A DNA stretch of 64,000 nucleotides from positions 1-64,000 of the forward strand of contig BCIJ01000012.1 of assembly GCA_001599935.1 (NCBI GenBank), read 5' to 3'. The stretch comes from Holtermannia corniformis (taxonomy: Eukaryota; Basidiomycota; Tremellomycetes; Holtermanniales). This document shows positions 35,080 through 57,960 of this stretch, one piece after another. Below the pieces are notes generated by a model. The model did no database searches. It was not told the DNA's origin and was given only the letters and a program-made list of their open reading frames with translations. The position numbers and the translations under genes are program-made. Numbering within the stretch: position 1 is the stretch's first letter; each line of letters opens with the position of its first letter.

Positions 35080-35355
35080 ATGTCGACCAGCGAGTCCAAC
35101 GAGCAGCGCGAGACGAGCAACCCGACAGCTGCGGGCGAGATCAAACCATCTTCATCACCCAACGCGTGTCAGACCGAGCTGTTGAGCGCCTTTCAAGCCT
35201 GCGCGACCGCGCCTCTTCACACACAATTCTGGAACGACCAGCAGCACAACGAGGCCCTGACCGTCCTCTATAAACTCTACTCGAGGGCTGAACAACTGAC
35301 AGAACCTGACGACGAGATGCGCAAAGTGATGAACTGGCGGGGCTCGACCACTTGA
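35080..35355 (+). CDS. Tandem small-protein array A, member 1 (divergent)
   Basis: Intronless, 91 residues. A Ser/Thr/Asn-rich disordered start (MSTSESNEQRE) precedes a helical core TELLSAFQACATAPLHTQFW and LYKLYSRAEQLTEPDDEMRK. The Leu-Tyr-x-Arg-Ala block and its position match members 2-4 (for example ARLYSRAATASADDAEI), so I place it as the outlying copy of the array. It lacks the terminal TDRM shared by the other three. No TATA box is obvious. No known family. Confidence 0.6.
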   Translation: MSTSESNEQRETSNPTAAGEIKPSSSPNACQTELLSAFQACATAPLHTQFWNDQQHNEALTVLYKLYSRAEQLTEPDDEMRKVMNWRGSTT

Positions 35356-35532
35356 TTGGATGCACCGCGTTGATCTGCACCCTGCGATCCCTTGCAAAGT
35401 CAGCTATCCAGTCGCTCCCATGATGCACACAGGAGGTCACTCCCGATTCGGCATGACGTCGCACCAAGGAAGTTCCTTTTCATCAATGTCGACTCCGCCG
35501 GCATCCTTTCTTTCCGACCGGCTCGACAGGCA

Positions 35533-35538
35533 TATATG
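35533..35538 (+). promoter_or_regulatory. TATA-like box, array A member 2
   Basis: TATATG lies 31 bp before the ATG at 35570, a spacing repeated for other array genes. Confidence 0.45.
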
Positions 35539-35569
35539 ACGCTGTCCTCCCTCGACCCCAATTCCCACC

Positions 35570-35821
35570 ATGCCGACCGACCTTCAGAACAAGCTGCATG
35601 ATGCATACGTTTCGTACGCCTCTTCGTTCGACTTCAATCACCACCGTGGCGACGGCGAGCGCGAAGAGGCTTATCGAGAATACCTCGTTCTGTACAAGTG
35701 CGCAGAGACGGCCAGCGACGATCACAAAGAAATCAACAAAGCTCTAGACAAATGGTCGCCGCAATCAACCAGTTCAACAAGGGCTGACGTGCCGAGTGGC
35801 GTTGATACCGACCGCATGTAG
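35570..35821 (+). CDS. Tandem small-protein array A, member 2
   Basis: Intronless, 83 residues, starting MPTDLQNKLHDAYVSYAS, close to member 3 (MPTDLQNQLQTAFTAWSG). The helical core continues REEAYREYLVLYKCAETASD, and the C-terminus ends VDTDRM. The protein is acidic and mostly helical, without signal peptide, Cys pattern or catalytic motif. Orphan family; function unknown. Confidence 0.75.
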   Translation: MPTDLQNKLHDAYVSYASSFDFNHHRGDGEREEAYREYLVLYKCAETASDDHKEINKALDKWSPQSTSSTRADVPSGVDTDRM

Positions 35822-35935
35822 CGCTCCTTTGTCAGAGATGCATCGGCATCAGTGCTGCTATCGACTCTGTTGTGCTATCGGCTGGCGGCGTTGCCGTTCG
35901 GCACCCTGCTGCGCATGGCGCAGTGGCCGCAAGGA

Positions 35936-35940
35936 TATAA
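35936..35940 (+). promoter_or_regulatory. TATA box, array A member 3
   Basis: GGATATAAGC places TATAA 33 bp before the ATG at 35969. Confidence 0.6.
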
Positions 35941-35968
35941 GCCCATCTCTGATCACCCACCACACAAC

Positions 35969-36217
35969 ATGCCCACCGACCTCCAGAACCAACTCCAAAC
36001 CGCCTTCACCGCCTGGTCTGGCACGCTGGTCGGCTCCCAGCTCTCGGACGACGCGACGCGCAATCAACAGCAGCAGGAGTATGCGCGCCTGTATAGCCGC
36101 GCAGCGACAGCGAGTGCCGACGACGCAGAGATCCGACAAGCGCTTCAAGATTACACGGCGGTCGCGAACACCACGGATAGCTCCAAACGCGATGGCACCA
36201 GCACTGACCGCATGTGA
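35969..36217 (+). CDS. Tandem small-protein array A, member 3
   Basis: Intronless, 82 residues. MPTDLQNQLQTAFTAWSG opens the first helix; QQEYARLYSRAATASADD is the best-conserved block of the family; the tail is TSTDRM. Member 4 is its closest relative across the whole length. Its 3' flank (to about 36285) is recognisably similar to that of member 4, so gene plus flank duplicated together. Confidence 0.8.
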   Translation: MPTDLQNQLQTAFTAWSGTLVGSQLSDDATRNQQQQEYARLYSRAATASADDAEIRQALQDYTAVANTTDSSKRDGTSTDRM

Positions 36218-36506
36218 GGGAGGATATCGTCGTCTGCAGTGCGCTAGATGTAACGCCGCTGCGGTGTGCGAAATGAGAGCGTACTATGGACACATGGTCG
36301 CCGCAATCAACCAAGGCGGCCGAGGCGTAGATACCCGCCATGGCACTTCCATAGCGATCGGTTGTACAACGCATCGTGTCGCTTGCGGCTCTCCCTTCAT
36401 CGGCCGGCTGCGACCTGTTAACACAGCCGTCTTCTTTCGCTACTCTACAAGCGCGCCGCTCATGCCGCGCATAAAGCGCAATCGATCACGCTGATCTCCC
36501 ATCACC

Positions 36507-36755
36507 ATGCCGAGCGCTCTCCAGAAACAACTCGAAAGTGCATTCACCGCGTACAGCGGGGCTTTCATCACCGGCCAAGCCGCGAACGATCGCTCAAGGG
36601 TGCAGGACCAGCAAGAGTATGCGCGGCTGTACGACCGCGCGGCAACGGCTAGTGCTGACGACTCGGAGATTCAGCGCGCTATTGCAGAGTACAACAGTGT
36701 GAAGGACACGACGGCTTCTTCCAAGCCTGATGGCGTCAACACAGACCGCATGTGA
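36507..36755 (+). CDS. Tandem small-protein array A, member 4
   Basis: Intronless, 82 residues, the same length as member 3. It begins MPSALQKQLESAFTAYSG, keeps QQEYARLYDRAATASADD and ends VNTDRM. Identity with member 3 is concentrated in these blocks while the linking residues differ, the pattern of a diversifying tandem family. A weak ATAAAG sequence lies ~33 bp upstream of the ATG. Confidence 0.8.
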   Translation: MPSALQKQLESAFTAYSGAFITGQAANDRSRVQDQQEYARLYDRAATASADDSEIQRAIAEYNSVKDTTASSKPDGVNTDRM

Positions 36756-45714: not shown

Positions 45715-47074
45715 ATGCCCATCGACCTGGTTGCGTTTGGAGCTCTTGCCGGGTCTGCAACCGCACTCGTCTACGCTCTCTACACGATGCCGAGCTCTCG
45801 CCAACAGTTTCTCGGCCCCGGCTGGGTCGACGGCGAGTTTGCGCCGTTGAGAAACGACATGATGCTCCGTGCGGCCCGCGGTCCGTCTCTCGGTCTCGAC
45901 AAGGCCTAGCTGACATGTACAGGCGAGGAGACGGAGCGTGCGCCCGTGTGGGTCATGCGCCAGGCAGGTCGCTACCTCCCTGGTCCGTCTCTCCGGTTCT
46001 TCACCCAAACTGACCATCAGAGTTCCTCGAGCTGCGCAAGAAGCACTCGTTCTTCGAGTGCTGCCAGACGCCTTCCCTCGCGTGCGAGCTCACGCTCCAA
46101 CCGATCCGCCGGTTCTCGGGCCTGCTCGACGCCGCCATCATCTTTTGCGACATTCTCGTCGTCCCGCAGGCCATGGGCATGGTGGTCGAGATGCATCCTG
46201 GCGCCGGTCCCGTCCTGCCTTCACCCCTCGTCACCCCTGCCGATCTCGAACGCCTGCACAAGACGGTCGATATCCACAAGCAGCTAGGCTACGTGTTTGA
46301 AGCGATCAAGCTCACTAGGGAGGCGCTGCAGGGCGAGGTCCCGCTGATTGGCTTCTGCGGTGCGCCTTGGACTCTGATGGCGTACATGGTCGAGGGCGGC
46401 GGCAGCAAGACGTTTCAAAAGAGCAAAGAGTGGCTGTACCGCTACCCCGAGGCGAGCAAGCAGCTGCTGTTGCGCATTGCCGATGTCTGTGCGGATCTCT
46501 TGGTCGGCCAAGTGCTGGCTGGCGCTCAGGTGGGTTTTCTCATCTATTCTGCTACTCTACACCTACCATGCTGACCGCGCAGATGGTCCAAGTGTTCGAC
46601 TCGTGGGCGGGCGAGCTCACGCCGTACCAATTCGAAGCTTTCGCCCTCCCGGCCCTCGTCTACATCCGTGAAAAGTTCCACCGCGTCCTGACCGAGCTCT
46701 CGCACCCGATCCCACCCATGACGCTGTTTGCAAAAGGCGCAAACGACAGCATCACCCTGCAGTCGGCCGTGGCCGGCTACGACACGCTCGGTCTCGACTG
46801 GACGATCGACCCGGTCAACGCGCGCGCCCTGTCGGACGCAGGCAGTGAACAGGCCGAGCAAAGGAGGATGACGTTCCAGGGCAACTGGGACCCGGTCGTC
46901 CTGTACGCTGGTAGGGACGGGATCGAGCGTGAAGTCGAGCGCGTCGCGCAACGCTTCAAGGCCGCGGGCGGGGCCTGGATCGCAAACCTCGGCCACGGCG
47001 TGACGCCGCAAGTCAAGCCAGACGACTTCAAGTGGTTCCTGCAGTGTGTGCACCAGTATACCCGCCGAGGATAG
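45715..47074 (+). CDS. HEM12: Uroporphyrinogen decarboxylase with N-terminal hydrophobic extension
   Basis: The enzyme body is canonical: RNDMMLRAARG-EETERAP, VWVMRQAGRYLPEF with the substrate-binding Arg pair, FSGLLDAAIIFCDILVVPQA, LIGFCGAPWTLMAYMVEGG, FDSWAGELTPYQFEAFALP, GLDWTIDPVNAR and QGNWDPVVLYAG, with the conserved His in ANLGHGVTPQV. It decarboxylates uroporphyrinogen III to coproporphyrinogen III in haem synthesis. Unusually, ATG 45715 adds MPIDLVAFGALAGSATALVY, a predicted transmembrane or presequence segment absent from the usual cytosolic enzyme. A start at a later Met, such as ATG 45787, would remove it. Three introns of 36-46 nt. Confidence 0.92.
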
Positions 47075-47183
47075 CATGTATAGACGATCCCAACTCGTAG
47101 AAGATTCGTGGTGTACGCAAACAAGGGAGATTTCTTCGAACCGTCGAGTCGTTGTAGCGTTCGAATCGTTCTGTTCATCAACG

Positions 47184-47821
47184 ATGCAGGCCACTCGCTC
47201 GCTCTGTGGTGCTTCCCGCTTGCCGTTGACGCCCAAGCGGGCCAACAAGGATTTTTACAAGGGTTGGTGCGCGTTCGGTGGAACCGTCTAACGATCGCAG
47301 GGACCGGTCAGTCGTACACTCCGGGCGGTGGCCATCGCACAGGCCCACCAGGCAAGCATGTCGTCGGAGGCAAGGCAAAGTACAGGCTGGTAGATGACAA
47401 CGTCCGGTTCTTTGTCGGGCCCGGTCAGGAGGCGTTCAACGAGACGAGGGTGGGTTCAGCTCGGCTGCGTCTCTTGCTGACCAGGCAGCTACGACCGTAC
47501 GTGTCCACGGCTGTACCCAAGCGTGAACCGGGTGTCCTCCCACCTCGGCGGACACGCAACCTGCTCCCTCCTTTCTCTCCCAACGCCCTCCCGCCCCTCC
47601 CGACGGCCACCACGGCCGAGGGGCAAGAACCGTTCTTGATCCGAAAAGACTTTGTCGACTTTTCAAAGCGCTATCAGCGCCTGACGACTGAAGACAAGAA
47701 GGCGCTGGTGATGAGCACACGGAGAAAGTTTTGGGACGGCCTCATGCGGCAGTATGGTGCGAGGGGAGCCGAAGGAGAGCAGGCGAGGACGGAAGAGGTC
47801 GAGCGGAGGGCAGGGCAGTGA
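47184..47821 (+). CDS. Mitochondrial ribosomal protein mL41 (MRPL27-like)
   Basis: MQATRSLCGASRLPLTPKRA is an Arg/Ser-rich presequence. NKDFYKG then, after a 36-nt intron, TGQSYTPGGGHRTGPPGKHV and YRLVDDNVRFFVGP follow the mL41/MRPL27 pattern (KDYYKG, Gly/Pro/Lys-rich loop, then VR-x-FVVP). LRPYVSTAVPK after the next intron corresponds to the family's LKPYV. The C-terminal extension (KRYQRLTTEDKKALVMS and an acidic, Arg-rich tail) is fungal-specific. Role: large subunit of the mitoribosome. Confidence 0.75.
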
Positions 47822-47982
47822 TGCAGTTTTGACGTGCGATGGTCGCTGCATGCTCACATCTGATGCAGTCGGCGAGAACGGGGAGCATGCTGACGCTGGC
47901 TAGGCGGAAGGCGAGTCGACTGCAAACTGATCGGCCGTGCACAGCAAACGTCTACCTTGCTGTCCTTTCGTCGACAACCACC

Positions 47983-50055
47983 ATGCATATCCCCCTCGTA
48001 CTCGGCTTCGCGCTCGCCGCAGCTGCACCAAGCCCGACAGTCCGTCTCGGCAGCACGGCGATACAAGGCCTCGCGTTTCCCCAGTTCAACCAAGATGTCT
48101 TCCTTGGCATCCCCTATGCCCAGCCGCGTACGTTGCGTTCAACCTGCCCGAGCTCACCCCAGCCATTGGTAACCTCCGGTTCGCACCGCCCAGACCCTAC
48201 CGCTGGACGCAGCGTGCATTCAACGCTACCACCGTTGCGAATGCGTGTCTGCAGGATCCCACAAGTGTACGTGGGCCATCGCAACGAGTACGACTGAGAT
48301 GCAGGTCGGAGCCGTCGGCGGAGCGCCCGTGTCGGAAGACTGCTTGACCGTCAGCATCTACCGCCCAGCCGGCGTGACCGCCAACGCCAAGCTGCCCGTC
48401 ATGGTCTGGATGTGCGTCGCTTTGGTGGGGCGCACCGCTGACGCTCAGCTATGGCGGCGGCTTCTTTGCTGGCTCTTCGACTCCTTACAACGCTACGGCC
48501 CTCGTTGGCGCCAGTATCCTTGCGGTGGGTCACCTACGTCGCTTCAATCCTGATGCCCCAGCACACGCCCGTAGTCTTTGTTGCGTTCAACTACCGCGTT
48601 GGCATCTTGGGCTTTGGGTAGGTTCCGCCTGACCGTTCACTACTGACACCCAGTGGCGGCAAAGAGTTTGCAGATCGCAACGCTGGCAACCTCGGCCTCC
48701 AAGATCAGCTGCTCGCGCTCGAATGGGTCCAGGCTCACATCCGCTCGTTTGGAGGTGATCCAGACAACGTGACGGCGTTTGGCTTGTCCTCGGGCGCCAT
48801 TTCGATCTCGCTGCATCTACTCAACCCGGCCGTCATTGCACGCAGGAAACCGCTCTTTCACCGTGCCATCATGCAGTCGGGCGCGCCGTCTACGTTTCCG
48901 CTGGTCAAAGCCGCCGTCTCGAGGCAAGCGGCCTACGACGCCGTCGTGACCGCCACGGGCTGTGCAGGCGAGAACAGCTTTGACTGCCTTAAATGGTTGG
49001 ATGCGGATTCGCTGCTCAACGCGACGCTCAGTGTGCTCCGCTCGCTCGAGTTTCAGCTCTTGTATGTTTAACGCTGTCCCCCTGGTGCTGACCAGACAGC
49101 AACTTTGCGTTTGGTATGTTGCCGCCTGCGCTTCCCGACTGACCTCAGGCCCGGTCATCGACGGCCGCATGATCCCAGATTCACCCCAGCGTCTCATCCA
49201 GACCGGCGCCTTTCGCAAGACGCCGTTCATCGCCGGCAACACGCTAGACGAGTGCGTGGCACAAGAGACAAACACGGCTGACATTCCAGAGGCACCGTCT
49301 TTGTCCCACTCGACCTCAACTCGACAGATCAATCAATCGCCTACCTCGACTTGTTCCTGCCAAAGCCGGCAGCTCGCGACGTGGTCAACGGCCTGTTTGA
49401 TCTCTACCCGGTCGGAGATGTCGCGGCGGGCTCGTCAGTACCGGCTTACATCGACATGGCTAACATGCAGACCGTACGGCACGGGCAATGAGACGTTTGG
49501 TCTTTCCCCGCAGTACGTTGGCACCCGTCTGCCTTTGCTGATCGACAGGTTCAAGCGCGGCGCCAGTCTCGTCGGCGACCTCACGCTGCAGTCGGCTCGG
49601 TACGTCGCTAATCTGTTGTCCCTGCTCACGCGACAGGCGCGAATTCCTCGACCATGCCGCCCGCCACGGCCTCACCGACACGTACTCGTACAGCTTTCAA
49701 GAGCCGTTTGCCAACGCTTCAGCCTACGGCGTCTCGCACGCCATCGACGCGTACTTTACCTTTGGCTTTGTCTCGCCCGAGTCTGGCTTTGCGCCAGAGT
49801 CCGAAGCGGTCCAGACTGATCTAATCGCGTATTGGTGCGTGTCGCGCGCACCCGCACGTGCTGATCGGTAGGATCAACTATGCAAACAGTGGCAATCCCA
49901 ACGGCCGCTCGCTTCCACCGTGGCCAGCCTACGACGCTGCAGGCGCACGCAACCTGCTGCGCTTCAAAGCCAACGACATGACTGTCTTCAAGGACGACTA
50001 CCGCCAAGAGCAGATTGCGTACGTTAACGCGCACGGGCAAGAGTTTAGTCACTAG
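47983..50055 (+). CDS. Secreted type-B carboxylesterase/lipase
   Basis: Signal peptide [18 protein letters not shown]. The alpha/beta-hydrolase body shows [23 protein letters not shown], the oxyanion-hole [47 protein letters not shown] and [19 protein letters not shown], where the nucleophilic elbow is G-L-S-S-G instead of the common G-E-S-A-G. Asn-x-Ser/Thr sites and six or more Cys fit a secreted glycoprotein. The distal part ([18 protein letters not shown]) probably carries the catalytic His. More than ten short introns. Substrate range from triglycerides to cutin or carbamates cannot be decided. Confidence 0.85.
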
Positions 50056-50121
50056 GTGTGAGATACGTGGGATAGAAGTGTCATCTGAATTTGTTGCCCT
50101 CAGATGCAGCCGACCTCGGCA

Positions 50122-50207
50122 GCGCTGACAATGGAGTTTTTGGCGGCGCTCGGCGGGATGTCTGGTTGCCGTTGCTCCGCGCCATGGTAGCGCTGACAAT
50201 GGAGTTT
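50122..50207 (+). repeat. 18-bp direct repeat upstream of array B
   Basis: GCGCTGACAATGGAGTTT occurs at 50122-50139 and 50190-50207. The flanking CGGCGCTCGGCGGGATG and CAGCGCTCGGCAAGATG are also related, so an ~65-bp unit duplicated in the promoter of the first array B gene. Confidence 0.8.
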
Positions 50208-50263
50208 CCTATCGGCAGACCAAGACCAGCACACATGGGCAGCGCTCGGCAAGATGGCTGGGC

Positions 50264-50269
50264 ATAAAA
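50264..50269 (+). promoter_or_regulatory. TATA box, array B member 1
   Basis: GCATAAAAGC lies about 30 bp before ATG 50297. Confidence 0.6.
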
Positions 50270-50296
50270 GCAAGACTCTTGGAGACGCTGGGCATA

Positions 50297-50617
50297 ATGG
50301 TCAAGTGCAGCAACTGCCGGCAAGCGTGCGACTCGTCCTATACGGGCTACCGGCTCTGCGCTTCGTGCTCAGTGCTCACCTCTTGTCGCGAATGTGGCGA
50401 AAAGGTCGCCAAGGGCGATACAAGCACCGAAGGCGATTGCGAGGCATGTTTCTACATCCTCCATCGCTCGCTCGACTTTGAATGCGAGAAGAGCACCTGC
50501 TCGACGAAGATCACGTCTGCGCAAGGTGATCAATGCGCACTCCATGGCGGGTCGCGCTTGCCAACCATGCAGCAGATGCCCGGGCTGTGGAGCAAAAGCC
50601 GTTGGAAGCCGTATTAA
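50297..50617 (+). CDS. Cys-rich tandem array B, member 1
   Basis: Intronless, 106 residues. CxxC pairs CSNC, CASC, CREC and CEAC are followed by DFECEKSTCSTKITSAQGD and CALHGG, then a Trp/Arg C-terminus (LWSKSRWKPY). The core STEGDC-x2-CF, DFxC, TKI-x2-QG and C-x2-HGG recurs in other array members. The Cys/His spacing suggests two treble-clef or zinc-ribbon-like sites. No signal peptide, so intracellular zinc binding is likelier than secretion. No known family recognised. Confidence 0.8.
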   Translation: MVKCSNCRQACDSSYTGYRLCASCSVLTSCRECGEKVAKGDTSTEGDCEACFYILHRSLDFECEKSTCSTKITSAQGDQCALHGGSRLPTMQQMPGLWSKSRWKPY

Positions 50618-50918
50618 TACACAGATGACCAATCAGGCCATGTGCTATCATTGTACTGCGGAGCAGTGCTGTCACTGGGGCGCTCCGAAGCAGATTGTCC
50701 AGTGTGGCCCTTGATCGCTTTCCCGTTGCTTACCGTCGCCCGCCTGCTGCTCTGCGCCGCGATCCCCTTTGTCCTAGGTTGCTCTTGATCCGGGCTCAGA
50801 AAGGGTCGTCGCGCAGGGTCCTCCCGCGTTGTATCGGAACATCGCCCCGCTCAGTGAGCTGGGTTCCAAGCCGGAGAACGTGCATAAATAGCTCACTTTT
50901 CATCAGCGACACTCAGCA
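50618..50918. other. Spacer between array B members 1 and 2
   Basis: No related frame is visible. It ends in the TATA box of member 2. Confidence 0.5.
50884..50890 (+). promoter_or_regulatory. TATA box, array B member 2
   Basis: CATAAATAG lies ~30 bp before ATG 50919. Confidence 0.65.
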
Positions 50919-51254
50919 ATGCCCAAGTGTAACAACTGCCGCCAGCCACTGACGCTTCCTATCGCCGACGGCGACTCTACCACTTTGTGCGAGACATGCT
51001 CGGTGCCCACTACTTGTAATGAGTGCCAGAAACTCGTGCCAATAGGGGAGACGAGCACAGAGGGAGACTGCCGCTCGTGCTTTGACGTCATCCAAAGTCA
51101 TCTAGACTTTGACTGCGAGCACGAAACCTGCAACACCAAGATCGCGTCTGTCCAAGGAGAGTACTGCACCCGTCACGGTGGGAATCCCAGGCCGAAACCG
51201 TCCAAACTCGAGACGGCCTGGCGTGGGAGCCGATGGAAGCCCTCGACAGAGTGA
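50919..51254 (+). CDS. Cys-rich tandem array B, member 2
   Basis: Intronless, 111 residues. MPKCNNCRQPL opens the first CxxC; CETC, CNECQK, STEGDCRSCFDVI, DFDCEHETCNTKIASVQGE and CTRHGG follow in the same order as member 1. The C-terminus AWRGSRWKPSTE matches the RWKP ending of members 1 and 4. Loops between Cys differ strongly while Cys and Gly stay fixed. Confidence 0.82.
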   Translation: MPKCNNCRQPLTLPIADGDSTTLCETCSVPTTCNECQKLVPIGETSTEGDCRSCFDVIQSHLDFDCEHETCNTKIASVQGEYCTRHGGNPRPKPSKLETAWRGSRWKPSTE

Positions 51255-51829
51255 TCTCCCAGTGAGATGAACAGCAGCAGTAACCATTCCCTTGAATCAC
51301 GATAGCGAGTCGGAGTTACCTTCCGCGGACTGCAGACAGGGGAGCATTCCCTTATGACAGCAAGTCTGCATCTTGCATGACGTCGTTCAAAGGGACTCGG
51401 TAGCACTTGCCATGGCGATCACAGCTGCTGGTCAGGCCAAAGAAACACGCATAACATGTCCTGCGCTCACCACTGGGCACATATTGCGCGGTGTTGCGGC
51501 CGGAGCAGCATGTCCAAGTGCAGCAGGCCGAGCTGCGTCGGAACCAGTCGTGCACAAAGCCTGGAGACCCAGCGTCCCCGTCTGGAACAGCCGAGCGGCA
51601 GGCGTGTGGTCTCACTGTGCAACGACTGCGTTGGAATCTTTACCGTCCAATATGGATTTAATCCAGGCTTTGATCTCTGCAATGCCTCCAATGTCACTCA
51701 CAGACCCAACACCGCTCAAAGGGGTACCAAGCCTCCTTGTTACGCTTGCCCGCAGATTGTCCGACGCCTTCGCAAGCGCTGATAACGCGGGTACACTGCT
51801 CGTCGTTGAGATGTAGCAGACTTCAAGCC
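51255..51829. other. Spacer between array B members 2 and 4
   Basis: It holds one low-confidence Cys-containing frame (51510-51782) and no TATA-like box. It may be a decayed array unit. Confidence 0.4.
51510..51782 (+). pseudogene. Possible decayed or divergent array B unit (member 3)
   Basis: A 90-residue frame begins MSKCSRPSCVGTSR and contains CNDC and later CYAC, so Cys pairs are present, but STEGDC, TKI-x-QG and HGG are missing. Position (one spacer on each side) and orientation fit a lost copy. It could equally be chance. Confidence 0.3.
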
Positions 51830-52171
51830 ATGCCCCCAACGTGCAACAATTGTGCATCGACCCAATCGTCCGGCTCGCACCTGTGCGGGACGTGTTCCGC
51901 GCCTGTCAAGTGCACAGAGTGCCAGGAGTCTGTTCCGCGTGGCAACACCAGCAATGACGGAGATTGCCGTAAGTGCTTTGAAATCATTTACCGCGATTCC
52001 GCTTTTCCTTGCTCGCAATGCGAAACCAAGATCACCATGGCGCAGGGTGAGAAGTGCAGCCGGCATGGCGGCAAACCCAAGCTGTCGCTGCGGGCGTTCG
52101 AAGCCCTGTGGAAGGAGGAGCGATGGAAGCCAGACAGTGGGTCCGGTCAGACGCAGCCCGAGTCTTGCTAG
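51830..52171 (+). CDS. Cys-rich tandem array B, member 4
   Basis: Intronless, 113 residues: MPPTCNNCASTQ, CGTC, CTECQESVP, TSNDGDCRKCFEII, AFPCSQCETKITMAQGEK and CSRHGG, then a basic C-terminus with EERWKPDSGSG. STEGDC is NDGDC here. The extra CSQC pair replaces the C-x3/4-C of the others. No TATA box is clear upstream. Confidence 0.82.
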   Translation: MPPTCNNCASTQSSGSHLCGTCSAPVKCTECQESVPRGNTSNDGDCRKCFEIIYRDSAFPCSQCETKITMAQGEKCSRHGGKPKLSLRAFEALWKEERWKPDSGSGQTQPESC

Positions 52172-52371
52172 CGCGAGGCAGGAACGTCGCTGCTGCAGAT
52201 GCAACCCATGGCCTATCTGAAGTGCCTTCGCGGTGGTGATACCTAGGCCACGTCTGCTTTGTATATCCGCGGTGAGGACAACGGTGAGCAGCCAAGCACA
52301 ACTCAGCAAATCAGGTCCAGAACAGAGGAGCGTTTCCTTTGCCACGAGTCATATCGCATAGTATAAGATGG

Positions 52372-52377
52372 GCACTG
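52372..52377 (+). promoter_or_regulatory. TATA box, array B member 5
   Basis: GTATAAGATG lies ~33 bp before ATG 52409. Confidence 0.6.
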
Positions 52378-52408
52378 CCTCGCCACGACCGTCATCTGCA
52401 CCCACACC

Positions 52409-52654
52409 ATGTCTGCGCACTGCAGGGAGTGCGGAACGGAGACTTCCAAGTACGCGCTGACCAATGAGGGCGACTGCTACAAGTGTTTCACATACTTGCA
52501 CCAGCAGCGCGACTTTCCTTGCCAGGCTGCCAACTGCAGCGAGACAACGACGAGTGCCCAAGATGGCAGATGTTCAAACCATGGGGGCTGTCCGGTCTTG
52601 GAAAATGAGGAGGATCTCAACAAAAAGTACAACTCTATGCTTTGCTGTGGCTAG
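52409..52654 (+). CDS. Cys-rich tandem array B, member 5 (short form)
   Basis: Intronless, 81 residues. MSAHCRECGTETSKYAL carries one CxxC, then TNEGDCYKCFTYL, DFPCQAANCSETTTSAQDG and CSNHGG, ending KKYNSMLCCG. It lacks the N-terminal double CxxC of members 1, 2 and 4, and pairs with member 6 as a short subtype. Confidence 0.82.
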   Translation: MSAHCRECGTETSKYALTNEGDCYKCFTYLHQQRDFPCQAANCSETTTSAQDGRCSNHGGCPVLENEEDLNKKYNSMLCCG

Positions 52655-52879
52655 CATCAAAGGGTCCCTGCGAATACCGCAAGGACTTGCACAGCAGTCA
52701 TGCATCGTCTTGTCGTCTTGAGCTGTGCACTGCCCGACTGCGAGATCGGACAATCATCTTGTCAATCTCCGAGTCTCAGCTGATTTCAAAGGTATCGATC
52801 GGGTCGACGTCGTATGCGCCGCCCGAATCGGCGCCATATCGGCTAAAGTGCTACAAGGGTACGTTGGAGTATCCGAGGA

Positions 52880-52886
52880 TATAATA
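52880..52886 (+). promoter_or_regulatory. TATA box, array B member 6
   Basis: GGATATAATACG lies ~30 bp before ATG 52915. Confidence 0.65.
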
Positions 52887-52914
52887 CGCCGCACGTATCT
52901 CGAGCCACTCCACA

Positions 52915-53172
52915 ATGTCGTCCGATGACTCGACCTGCCGCGAATGTCAAAAGCCATCGAGCCGCTTCGTGCGGACGACGGAAGGCGACTGTTTTACGTG
53001 TTTCCGCCTCATTCAGCAGAGCCGTGACTTTCCATGCAGTGCTGGGAATTGCTCAACCCTGACGACTTCGGCGCAGAACGAGCGGTGCGAGGCTCATGGC
53101 GGCACAGCGGTCCCGTCGGACGAAGAAATGATGAAGCTGTTCAACAGCATGCTGCCGTCCACAACCCACTGA
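52915..53172 (+). CDS. Cys-rich tandem array B, member 6 (short form)
   Basis: Intronless, 85 residues: MSSDDSTCRECQKPSSRF, TTEGDCFTCFRLI, DFPCSAGNCSTLTTSAQNE, CEAHGG and a tail MMKLFNSMLPSTTH. It resembles member 5 over its whole length, including the FNSML/YNSML tail, so these two are the youngest pair. Confidence 0.82.
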   Translation: MSSDDSTCRECQKPSSRFVRTTEGDCFTCFRLIQQSRDFPCSAGNCSTLTTSAQNERCEAHGGTAVPSDEEMMKLFNSMLPSTTH

Positions 53173-53198
53173 ATCCTGCAGAGAAAGGATGGACTCAT

Positions 53199-54197
53199 CT
53201 ATGCATTGCGTTGTGATGCTCGGATCCCCAGCACGCCCCTCACGCCTTCGAGTGCGAGCGTGTCGACATCTTCCCGCGTGTTGTCAATGCTGACCGTCAC
53301 CACGCCGTCTTCTTCTCTCGGGTCTTCAAGCGTAGCCAGCTGCGAGTCGAGCATCTTGGCGCCCATAAAGTGGTTCTTCCGTGCTGCGATCCGACCCTCG
53401 AGCAGCTCGCGCTCGCCATGACAGTAGAGGAAGAGGGTTTGCAGGCGGGACGTGGCTGGCTTCGAGATCTCGTCGGGCAGCTCGGATGAGCGCAAGGGCT
53501 GAGGTGTCAGTTGATGCCGGTGCAGACTTGACGCACCAGATCATCCTCTGCTGGCGGCTGAGCTTGAACAACACCACGGAGGATATCGCGATACCAAGCC
53601 TTGAGAGCCGAGCACGCAATCACAACCGCTGGTCGGCCAAACACGGTCGAGACCTCGTTCTTCTCGTATTGCTCGTGGCAGACGCGTTCGGCTGTCGAGC
53701 GGATCAGTGCGAGCCACGGCAGGCGGTCGGCGTCGTTGAGTGGGTTCCCGGCTGACATTTTGGCAACGTTGGAAGCCGGGTGGAGATTGTCGGCATCGAT
53801 GAACGGGACTTGGAGTGATGTGGCGAGAGACTGCCCGATTGTCGACTTTCCGCTATGTGGCGTTAACCCGTACCTTCCGAGGAAGACGTTACCAACCAGG
53901 AAGCCACGCCCTGCGGTCGTGTGAGTCGCATGTTGCCGCATCCACCGCACTCACCATGACGACGATCAATACGGGCCGTGGGCTGTCCTCTGGCACGGTC
54001 AGTTCCTCCTCCTCGGCATCCAGCTTGTCCTCTTCCTGTTCGAGAGCGGCAGCACGGGCCTCATCCGCGCCTGTTGCGTAGCGCTCGCCCTCGGGCAGCG
54101 CATGGAACGCCGAGGACGGGTGGAAGAGCACGCCGAGTGTCGCGGCGGTGAATAGGACCGTTCCGAACAGGCTCAAGTGAACGTCGTGCGATGCCAT
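53199..54197 (-). CDS. Gluconokinase with N-terminal membrane segment
   Basis: The kinase part is canonical: PVLIVVM-GVASCGKSTIGQSL (P-loop assembled across two introns), FIDADNLHPASNVAKMSAG, PLNDADRLPWLALI, VIACSALKAWYRDILRG and LYCHGERELLEGRIAARKNH with the lid Arg, then FMGAKMLDSQLATLEDP. It phosphorylates gluconate to 6-phosphogluconate. Before it, MASHDVHLSLFGTVLFTAAT and GVLFHPSSAF form one hydrophobic helix, then a ~40-residue Glu/Asp-rich linker. The usual fungal enzyme is soluble and lacks this extension. A start near the P-loop is not available, since the preceding frame is open throughout. Confidence 0.85.
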
Positions 54198-54417
54198 GCT
54201 GGTTGTTGGAAGCGAAGCGCTGAATCGTCAAGCTCGTTGGAAGTCTTGGGGAGGAAGAGGACGATCCCGGAAGCCGGCCCGGCGTCATGTGTGGCGCTTG
54301 CTAGAGGCGTGCTACACATCGTAGCAATTTGTGCTAGAACATTTAGCAAACGCAATAGGAGAACCGTCAGGACCATACCTGTTGATCTCACCATCTGCAA
54401 GCTCTACGCACCTCGGA

Positions 54418-55557
54418 ATGGCCATCAAACGCCCCATCTCACCCTCGGCAAGCACTTCTGTAAAGGACGCAAAAGCCGCCAAGCCGTCGTTCGCGCCTGA
54501 TCAAGGCAAAGAGTGGCTGCTGGCGGAACTCGATACGCTCGAGCAGAGCTACAAGGCGGCTCTGTACCATGTCGGGATGATCATGCGGTTCCATGCAGAT
54601 GTCAGGAGGGTGTGAGTACTCTCGGTCACGCAGAAAGGAGCTGATCGAGCAGCGGGTCGCACGTCCGTAACGCACCATCGCACCTCGTCGTCGGCTTGGC
54701 GAGGGAGACGGACCGGTGGGAGAATGCAAAGCGTAGGGTCGACTACTATCTTGTAGGTCAATCGAGTCGAGGGTCGTGGGCTGACGAGTCAGCGCAAAAC
54801 GTACCGGCTGACATCCAACTCGGTCGCTCCCTCGCCCGAACTCTCGCACCAACCGCTCGAGGACGACGAGACAGTTCTTGCCTCCGTTCCTGCACCTCCT
54901 CCCTCGGCTCTATCCAACCCACTCCTCGCAGCACATCTCAAGCTGCCGACAGGTCAAGCATCGCCCGTCCCACTTGCTACCGCCAAGTTTGACAGCACGG
55001 CCGCACCAACTCTGAACGAGGCAACATTCTTCGACCAGACCACTACCAATCCAGAACTGCTTGCGTCCTACCCTGCGCCGGTGCAAGAACAACTGAACCT
55101 GAACCAGCTCCATCCCTTCATCTCGACGGACCAAACGAGGCAGACGGAAGAGTTTCCCGACATGTCCGAGATGGACTTTACCAACCTCGACATGTCGGCG
55201 CTCGAGGGGCTCTTTCCGGGTGGTGGAGACGCCGAGCAGCAGACGGTCACAGAGCAGGCACCGCTACCGAGAGCAGACCTCGACCAGCTACAGGCGTTTT
55301 TGAACCAATCGACGGCACCTCGTGCTGCACCGACCCCTGCACCACAGCCCCAGACCCAACCACAGCGACCACCACCGCCCACCCAGCAGTACCTCGACTC
55401 GACGTTTGCCGCGCCAAGCAATCCGCCGGCACCGCCGGCTCCCCCTTCCGACGCGCTGACAGGGCTCGGACTCGAGATCCCCTCAAACGGAGCCAACGAC
55501 GGGTTGCAGCTTGGTCCAGAGGAGCTCGAGATGCTTTTGGCAGGCTGGCAAGAATGA
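54418..55557 (+). CDS. Unrecognised protein with helical N-terminus and acidic Pro/Gln-rich tail
   Basis: MAIKRPISPSASTSVKDAK leads to a helix EWLLAELDTLEQSYKAALYH and VGMIMRFHADVR; two short introns then join SHLVVGLARETDRWENAKRR and the tail. The tail has short acidic/hydrophobic clusters (MDFTNLDMSALEGLFPGG) that resemble transactivation segments, Pro/Gln-rich linkers and LQLGPEELEMLLAGWQE at the end. The layout would suit a Mediator-type or transcriptional coactivator subunit, by inference only. The stop is 17 bp from the convergent gene. Confidence 0.65.
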
Positions 55558-55574
55558 CGCAAACAGATGCATCC

Positions 55575-55814
55575 CTACACACTCGACATTGTATTCCCCG
55601 CGCGTATCGCAATCGCTTTCTCGAGTTCTTTCTCGATCTCCGGCTCAGTCTTCTTTCCGAGCTCTCCGCGCTCATGAGCGGCTTCAAGCTCGGCACGGGT
55701 CCACTTGGTGATCAATTCATTGCACATTGTAACAGTGAGGTGGTTTCCATTGGGTTTGAAGCGCCTTTGCATGCGTTCGACATACTGCGTGACAGTCTCC
55801 GATATGTCTGACAT
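55575..55814 (-). CDS. Small charged helical protein
   Basis: Intronless, 79 residues: MSDISETVTQYVERMQRRF, LTVTMCNELITKWTRAELEA, and a Glu/Lys-rich helix (TEPEIEKELEKAIAIRAG). A single TW-hydrophobic core with flanking charged helices suggests a small subunit of a complex. No family is recognised. Its 3' end is convergent with the preceding gene. Confidence 0.6.
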   Translation of the reverse strand: MSDISETVTQYVERMQRRFKPNGNHLTVTMCNELITKWTRAELEAAHERGELGKKTEPEIEKELEKAIAIRAGNTMSSV

Positions 55815-55852
55815 GGGCGACTGTCAGTGAGCAGCAGAGACTATAAAAGTGG

Positions 55853-56000
55853 GCATGCGCTGATCTCGCTGTTTACAGGCGCGCGACCAGTCGAGCGACG
55901 CGTGTGCCTTCTGCGCAGCTGACACCCTTTGTGCTCGATCAAGGAGCATGCGCTCATCTCGCTCTCAATTTGTCGAGAGAAGGCTTGGCCTTCTGCGCAG
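55853..56000 (+). repeat. Imperfect duplicated segment
   Basis: GCATGCGCTGATCTCGCT at 55853 recurs as GCATGCGCTCATCTCGCT at 55946, and GCCTTCTGCGCAG occurs at 55906 and 55988. Spacing differs (53 against 42 bp), so this is an old duplication in the interval between two genes. A TATAAAAG at 55843 precedes it. Confidence 0.6.
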
Positions 56001-56094
56001 TCCGTCCTTTCGTATCCAGGATAGAGCTGAAAACACCAGGACCGCGTTATCATTCACTTTATGTACAACCTTTGCCACCTTTCGCGACGGGAGC

Positions 56095-57960
56095 TCAAGT
56101 TAACAGCGCCTCGAGCTGACGCTGTTCCGCCGCGACCAAGTCGGGTGCCACCTCGGCGGATTCCAGATCAACGACCTGCAACGGCAAGTCGGGGCCAGGA
56201 CTACAGATATTCCTCATTGCGACGTCGCGCTGGATGACGCCGATAGCATGCAAAGCGGCAAACGCTTGGCGGATCAAGTCCCTACCACGTTAATGGCTCA
56301 TCAATATCCTCAGTACCTACCTTTGCGCCGGACGCAAGTAGGGCCAATCCCAACCCAGAGCCTCCAGACTGGATCCCGCATCCGACTGGACGATGATGGC
56401 GGCATCCTTGCCGATACCGAACCCGAGGAGCCGAGGGACCGCGCGGCCTTGCAGCGGGGCGAGAGGTCCCTGAAGAATGTCGATCTCGCTCTGAACATGC
56501 TCCCGCCACTCGGGACCGTATTCGTCGGTGCGGGAGCCGGTACCAGGACAGGCAACTTTGATGACGCATGGGGTGCTCTTGCCCTCTACGACGAGCTGGG
56601 CACCGTAGCAGTCATACAGATGGCCGGACGCAATGTGGTACTTGACGAGAATATCGTCGTGGCTGATGGCAGAGTTGCCGATGGCTTCAATGCTGACGTC
56701 GGCCAAGCGCTCTCGTTCTAACGCGGTGAGGGCCGATTGTGAGCTGAGCAGTTTGGGTGCCGACGCACGACCGTCGAGAAACTAGTGTTGGTTAGCTCAA
56801 GCAACGACGGGACGACGTACTGGACCAAAGAGCTTGGCGTCGTCTGCCGAGTGTACTGCGGAAACGGTCGCAGCGCCGGCAGCGCCAACCTCGGCTGCAG
56901 CAGTTGATGCTGGCCGCTCCAGGACTGCGGGGTCGGCGCGCGCACGCTTGTTCGAGTACATCTCGTGCCGCCGGAACCCGCGCGCGAAGAGGACTTGGCT
57001 TGGGTCGACGGGGGGCTCGACAGCCAGTGCGACCAGCACAGCAAGTGGTGCTGGGCTGGGCCCGTAGCCTGGACGCGGCGGGTATGCCGCCGAGTCGCGA
57101 CGAAAGAGGCGCGAGACGGCAATGCGGTCAATGGCGACGAGCTTGAAGAGCACATAGTCGTCATAGTCGGTCAGGAGAGCGTAACGCGCGCGGTAGACGT
57201 GCAATTTCTCGACCACCTGCAAGAGTCAGCCTATCGTCGTGAGATCACAGCAACGCACCTGCACCAGCAGGCTCTGGACGTCTGCAGCGAGCTCTACATT
57301 GTGAACCCTGACCGCACCGGCCTGAACCTCGACCGTGAAGGATGCCGAGTGAACCGAGCCAAAGAGCTTGGCGAGGATGGCGTCAAAGCGACCTTGCACT
57401 TTGACGACCTTTTGGACCTCGACGATTGCGTTGATCTGCGGCACGAGAGCCGACGGCATGGTCATAAAGTCGCTCGAGGCTGAGCCCTTTTCTACCGCTG
57501 GCGCCCATTGGACCCGAGGCGATGACGGCTCGTTGAAATGGGTAGATTCCGAGATGAATACATTGGCGAGGGTGAACAGTGATACTTGCATGAGAGCGCA
57601 AAGGGCTTTTGCGTGCGGGATGGCGGTATATCTCGCGATCTCATGCAAGGCAGCTGACATGGCCGTCCACTTTGCACTTTGTACGACGTCGTGGTCCAAG
57701 GCGGTATCCAGCTGCGCGAGCAGCTCTTGCAGCATGGTCTCGTCGCCGACAAACGTGATGCGGTGCTCAGGTATGTGCTGAAACATGCGAACGACAGTCT
57801 GGCTCGGTCGCCATTGACTGATAGTGGCTTCCGGGACGACAAGGTCATTGGCAAAAGACATGTCAGTGGGCGTGCGATCAACGGCCGGCGGGATGTGCTT
57901 GAAGAGCGCTTCAGCCATCTTGCCCGGCGGCACTGACGATGATCCCCCGTCGTTGGACAT
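56095..57960 (-). CDS. Divergent protein-kinase-like protein (fungal kinase-fold family)
   Basis: A ~240-residue N-terminal region (MSNDGGSSSVPPGKMAEALF) is followed by YRARYALLTDYDDYVLFKLV and a second linker. The kinase-like lobe holds ISHDDILVKYHIASGHLYDC, CVIKVACPG with the ATP-site Lys, and VPRLLGFGIGKDAAIIVQSD. After a 39-nt intron come LHAIGVIQRDVAMRNICSPG, where QRD replaces HRD, and LPLQVVDLESAEV, where DLE replaces DFG. The architecture resembles expanded agaricomycete FunK1-like kinases. Loss of the His and Gly may mean weak or absent activity. Three introns; a decayed copy lies just upstream. Confidence 0.75.

Follow-up and report, generated by a model that had tools for sequence, protein, structure and literature searches.

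In the 64,000 nucleotides of Holtermannia corniformis contig BCIJ01000012.1 analyzed here (positions 1 to 64,000 of the forward strand; in the following, the window) five small genes stand in tandem (m1, m2, m4, m5 and m6; Table 1). They represent a real, old and selected family of zinc-finger-like small proteins that is present at a single locus and is undescribed in the libraries and the literature searched. All five open reading frames (ORFs) are co-oriented on the + strand and run uninterrupted from ATG to stop, so that the five intact tandem genes proposed in a previous sequence-only reading were recovered. Judged from these intact frames the genes appear to lack introns, as was also proposed.

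Conserved core, coding status and age of the family

The members of this family have the common core C-x2-C-x14-C-x2-C-x11-C-x(2,4)-C-x11-C-x2-HGG, in which eight ligand-type positions are invariant in all five proteins; invariant G, D, F and Q residues occur as well. The cysteine content amounts to 8-12%, and the identity of the other members to m1 is 36-48%. When all six frames of the 64-kb window are searched for the strict ligand spacing (ending in C-x2-H), which was derived from the same five members, each member gives one match. These five matches are the only ones, and 20 rounds of residue-shuffled frames gave none, in agreement with the earlier statement that the Cys/His positions are fixed. 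From the proposed shared motif STEGDCxxCF only the part GDCxxCF is common to all five proteins, whereas exact STEGDC is restricted to m1 and m2. A profile of the five members gives them 107-167 bits, values that are high by construction since it was built from them, and the next best among 1319 six-frame ORFs of at least 30 amino acids reaches 7.1 bits. Third-position GC of all five genes (0.69-0.72) lies within the values of 0.67-0.80 that five conserved exons from elsewhere in the window show. First-position GC is lower in the five members (0.44-0.49 versus 0.64-0.70 in the same exons), which can probably be ascribed to amino-acid composition.

Pairwise comparison of the genes revealed proportions of synonymous differences (pS) of 0.66-0.88 and of non-synonymous differences (pN) of 0.36-0.51 as whole-gene averages, with pN < pS in 10 of 10 pairs. 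From the ligand pattern, the profile separation, the third-position GC and this excess of synonymous over non-synonymous differences we conclude that the five ORFs are genuine protein-coding genes. The copies are under purifying selection. The duplications are old, since the synonymous divergence (dS; Nei-Gojobori, own script), likewise a whole-gene average, amounts to 1.6 or more in all ten pairs (no estimate was possible for four of them). The array is tandem as suggested by the phrase “expanding in place”, but both pS and dS speak against recent growth. Searches of the own genome (20.2 Mb, 55 contigs) with m2, m4 and m6, six-frame and exon-wise, found the family at the array locus only, which supports a single tandem locus at a depth where strongly diverged intron-split paralogues could escape.

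The phylogenetic reconstruction of the five sequences (rooted at midpoint, with m4 flagged as long branch) separates a long subtype (m1, m2, m4) from a short subtype (m5, m6) with support of 100/99, and the division into long and short forms that had been noticed before is thereby confirmed. This split matches the order of the genes on the chromosome, as expected from stepwise tandem duplication. The subtypes also differ in their tails, with W-x3-RWKP in all three long and [YF]NSML in both short members, and the long subtype possesses an additional CxxC...CxxC ribbon. An origin of this first ribbon as a copy of the second one by internal duplication is unsupported (with the shared Cys excluded, 4936 of 5000 shuffles were equal or better), and a search ahead of the short members gave no trace of this ribbon (best 3.1 bits).

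Distances from start to start are 622 bp for m1-m2, 579 bp for m4-m5 and 506 bp for m5-m6. Between m2 and m4 the distance is 911 bp, and the possible relic m3 falls inside. Its suggested descent from the family finds some backing in a 21-nt stretch around the ATG that is 81% identical to the m1 counterpart, but against the family profile it scores 4.2 bits, a value that 27 of 1000 shuffled versions of the same residues also attain, and its membership is unproven.

Relation to described protein families

For none of the array proteins was a Pfam or NCBIfam model found at its curated cut-off. The closest approach is that of m4 to the double zinc ribbon PF12773 DZR with 24.7 bits (E 2.6e-5, residues 5-38; cut-off 27.3), followed by PF18912 DZR_2 with 18.6 bits (residues 2-49; cut-off 27); PF12773 was not reported for the other five ORFs scanned. 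As in double zinc ribbons the array proteins contain serial CxxC pairs in small ribbons, and four such pairs in series (our own pattern for this fold) occur in three of three long and none of two short members, but the later CxxHGG part falls outside the m4 match. The m4 scores thus come near to, but do not amount to, clear homology with a described zinc-ribbon family, which the previous reading had named as a refuting result. A zinc-finger-like end of the type C..C....C-x2-HGG is shared with two further families, yet at scores far under their cut-offs, namely m2 (residues 66-88; this member only) with PF24906 Zf_WRKY19 (8.2 bits, cut-off 27) and m6 (residues 46-64) with NCBIfam NF041373 HGG_STG (14.5 bits, cut-off 29). 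The genome contains eight Zf_WRKY19 and five HGG_STG matches at E<=10, none of them within the array, and the motifs HGGxSTG and CxxHGGG occur in none of the five proteins. Judged by these comparisons the family cannot be filed among the DZR, WRKY19-type or HGGxSTG families. The ligand patterns of RING, FYVE, LIM and PHD domains are likewise found in none of the array proteins.

Among 5.8 billion proteins of a collection in which eukaryotes are sparse, the alignment of the five sequences led to 68 candidates, none of them with E<=10, and m1 alone to no candidate with three shared 5-residue words. A control with a CBP80 exon from the same window (7997 candidates scored) yielded at least 53 proteins with E<=0.001, the best with 79% identity across 76% of the query length. 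With eukaryotes so sparsely represented, missing homologues do not prove a restricted family, and because few fungi are included the family may well have relatives in other fungal genomes. Of 38 pattern stretches in viral contigs and 53 in prokaryote genomes none was confirmed. In phage records no match was obtained for m2 at E<=1, while m6 matched 13 at E<=10 (best E about 0.9), with a terminase small subunit annotation in three of ten among the matches listed. The best PHROGs hit (phrog_15341 for m4, E 0.0053, function unknown) and the best PADLOC hit (Csm6 model for m1, E 0.037) are weak, and no account of such a family was found in the literature, screened without full texts. The previous designation as undescribed is consistent with all these results.

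Putative zinc sites, fold and function

The array proteins probably bind zinc, as their ligand spacing suggests, and probably work like other small structural-zinc modules. In m1 the ligand-type positions C4/C7, C21/C24, C30/C33, C48/C51, C63/C68 and C80/H83 are found, and we infer the sites C4/C7 with C21/C24, C30/C33 with C48/C51 and C63/C68 with C80/H83. In AlphaFold models of both subtypes a helix begins within the second CxxC in a treble-clef-like manner at modest confidence. Fold-library matches are weak, and a further helix is predicted in the C-terminal tail. A hydrophobic N-terminus is absent from all five proteins (best 12-residue Kyte-Doolittle mean at most 1.13), so by this hydrophobicity measure the earlier prediction that signal peptides are missing appears correct.

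We consider the chances about even that the array encodes small soluble intracellular structural-zinc proteins acting as non-enzymatic zinc-finger adaptors or inhibitors. Each protein would be folded round structural Zn(II), with two ions in the short and three in the long subtype. A treble-clef-like unit (CxxC ... GDCxxCF, helix beginning in the second CxxC) would be connected with a second unit, C-x(2-4)-C ... CxxHGG, and the long subtype would have the CxxC ... CxxC ribbon as an addition at its N-terminus. A rigid scaffold would be held by the zinc sites, and the variable loops together with the subtype-specific helical tail would be the likely partner-binding surfaces. Members would have diversified after the old tandem duplications and would probably be expressed from regulated TATA promoters.

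Among other explanations, nucleic-acid-binding zinc fingers, perhaps a remnant of a mobile element or of a larger transcription factor, come next and seem unlikely. The CxxHGG part resembles, below threshold, WRKY19-type fingers and HGGxSTG proteins, m6 has its very weak likeness (E about 0.9 or worse) to some phage terminase small subunits, and KDZ transposase matches are present elsewhere in the genome. But three of the five proteins are acidic (pI 5.2-5.6, with 7.4-8.0 in the other two), the HGGxSTG and CxxHGGG motifs are lacking, and among ten window ORFs scanned at E<=0.01 no transposase family was detected. Moreover, the KDZ matches were obtained on contigs other than that of the array, and family copies were found at one place only.

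Rather improbable is a RING-like cross-brace, in which four ligand pairs would hold two zincs interleaved and the proteins would act in ubiquitin or SUMO transfer (E3-like or E2-binding). The search of the PDB by sequence at E<=10 returned two matches, the TRIM34 RING (0.0013) and a MasC subunit (0.75), but in the TRIM34 alignment two of the eight RING ligands appear to be left unmatched, and the C3HC4 or C3H2C3 spacing occurs in none of the five proteins. No RING E3 family appeared in Pfam at E<=10, and zf-UDP (“RING-finger”) in m4 reached 13.5 bits (cut-off 27.1).

Slightly more doubtful is metal buffering, i.e. metallothionein-like storage or detoxification of zinc or copper. Fungal metallothioneins are small, Cys-rich and tandem like the array proteins, their genes are often metal-induced, and both the Cys content and the TATA-like promoters of these small tandem genes would suit this role. 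In contrast with metallothioneins the CxC motif is absent in five of five proteins, and the fixed spacing, the invariant G, D, F and Q residues and the predicted helices speak for structural sites within a folded protein. Finally, exported disulfide-held effectors or antifungal peptides, for which small, Cys-rich and divergent tandem genes are typical in fungi, are very improbable given the missing hydrophobic N-terminal stretch and the paired CxxC/CxxH spacing that is typical of metal sites.

Putative promoters, gene neighborhood and significance

A TATA-like heptamer (at most one mismatch) starts 34-47 bp before the ATG in four of the five genes, but neither in m4 nor in the relic. At random positions of the window such a heptamer is found in the -60 to -25 interval in 1.8% of 20,000 draws. 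This interval was fixed with the sequence already in view, and true promoters may contain such words more often than random positions do. If the common distance of about 30 bp between TATA box and transcription start applies here, the leaders would be very short and the mRNAs of m1, m2 and m6 (boxes 34-36 bp before the ATG) nearly leaderless. As TATA genes in yeasts are often regulated or stress-induced, inducible expression of the array genes is a fair guess by analogy. Shared upstream 7- to 9-mers above the level of shuffles were not found. Upstream of m1 a 22-nt direct repeat (95% identical copies, 68 bp apart) was observed.

Table 1. Array genes, TATA-like boxes and additional features (positions refer to the window unless a contig is given)
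Feature	Position	Strand	Remarks
m1, long subtype	50297-50617	+	106 aa; tail LWSKSRWKPY
m2, long subtype	50919-51254	+	111 aa; tail AWRGSRWKPSTE
m3?, possible decayed member	51510-51782	+	ATG 51510, stop 51782; retains MSKC...C and LCNDC; without GDCxxCF and HGG; unproven
m4, long subtype	51830-52171	+	113 aa; third site cut to C-x2-C; tail LWKEERWKP...
m5, short subtype	52409-52654	+	81 aa; tail KKYNSMLCCG
m6, short subtype	52915-53172	+	85 aa; tail KLFNSMLPSTTH
TATA-like box of m1	50263-50269	+	CATAAAA; 34 bp before ATG
TATA-like box of m2	50883-50889	+	CATAAAT; 36 bp before ATG
TATA-like box of m5	52362-52368	+	TATAAGA; 47 bp before ATG
TATA-like box of m6	52880-52886	+	TATAATA; 35 bp before ATG
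Direct repeat upstream of m1	50118-50139 / 50186-50207		22 nt
Second tandem array	35146-36752	+	small orphan proteins, MPTDLQ...TDRM type
KDZ transposase locus	C20:379989-380838		own genome
KDZ transposase locus	C2:371746-372589		own genome

One neighbor of the array, encoded on the + strand, is carboxylesterase-like (20.2 bits for Pfam COesterase, under the 27-bit cut-off), and its frame appears to end near 50055. The neighbor on the other side is a - strand gene for a P-loop kinase (27.8 bits for Pfam SKI, above cut-off), which by its motif presumably resembles gluconokinase. No Rfam families were found in 47000-56500. A SWI6-like ankyrin protein, the nuclear cap-binding protein exon and the KDZ transposase matches on other contigs would suit a fungus, perhaps a basidiomycete. 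The KDZ matches form two loci with three matched stretches each, one stretch with an internal stop. An aromatic ammonia-lyase (PF00221), a 5.8S rRNA and a TTAGGG triple were looked for in the assembly and not found. Small orphan proteins are also encoded by a second tandem array about 13.5 kb upstream of the zinc-finger-like one, with three clear members and one weak match (E 0.13). This type was found nowhere else in the genome, and the three clear members show no Pfam match above cut-off.

Lineage-restricted arrays of small proteins are not rare in fungi, and orphan arrays of small proteins are among the components of fungal genomes that are understood less well. With lower probability, the five genes belong to a fungal-lineage family in which a treble clef and a CxxHGG unit, optionally together with a third ribbon, build a new composite zinc fold. 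In this case an old and diversified array would have been preserved at a single locus, and its members would have different binding partners and could serve, for instance, as adaptors in an inducible response related to stress, recognition or defence. The array is compact, with a clear invariant core and two subtypes, and at less than 3 kb it could be deleted as a whole; therefore zinc binding, fold and role are directly testable.
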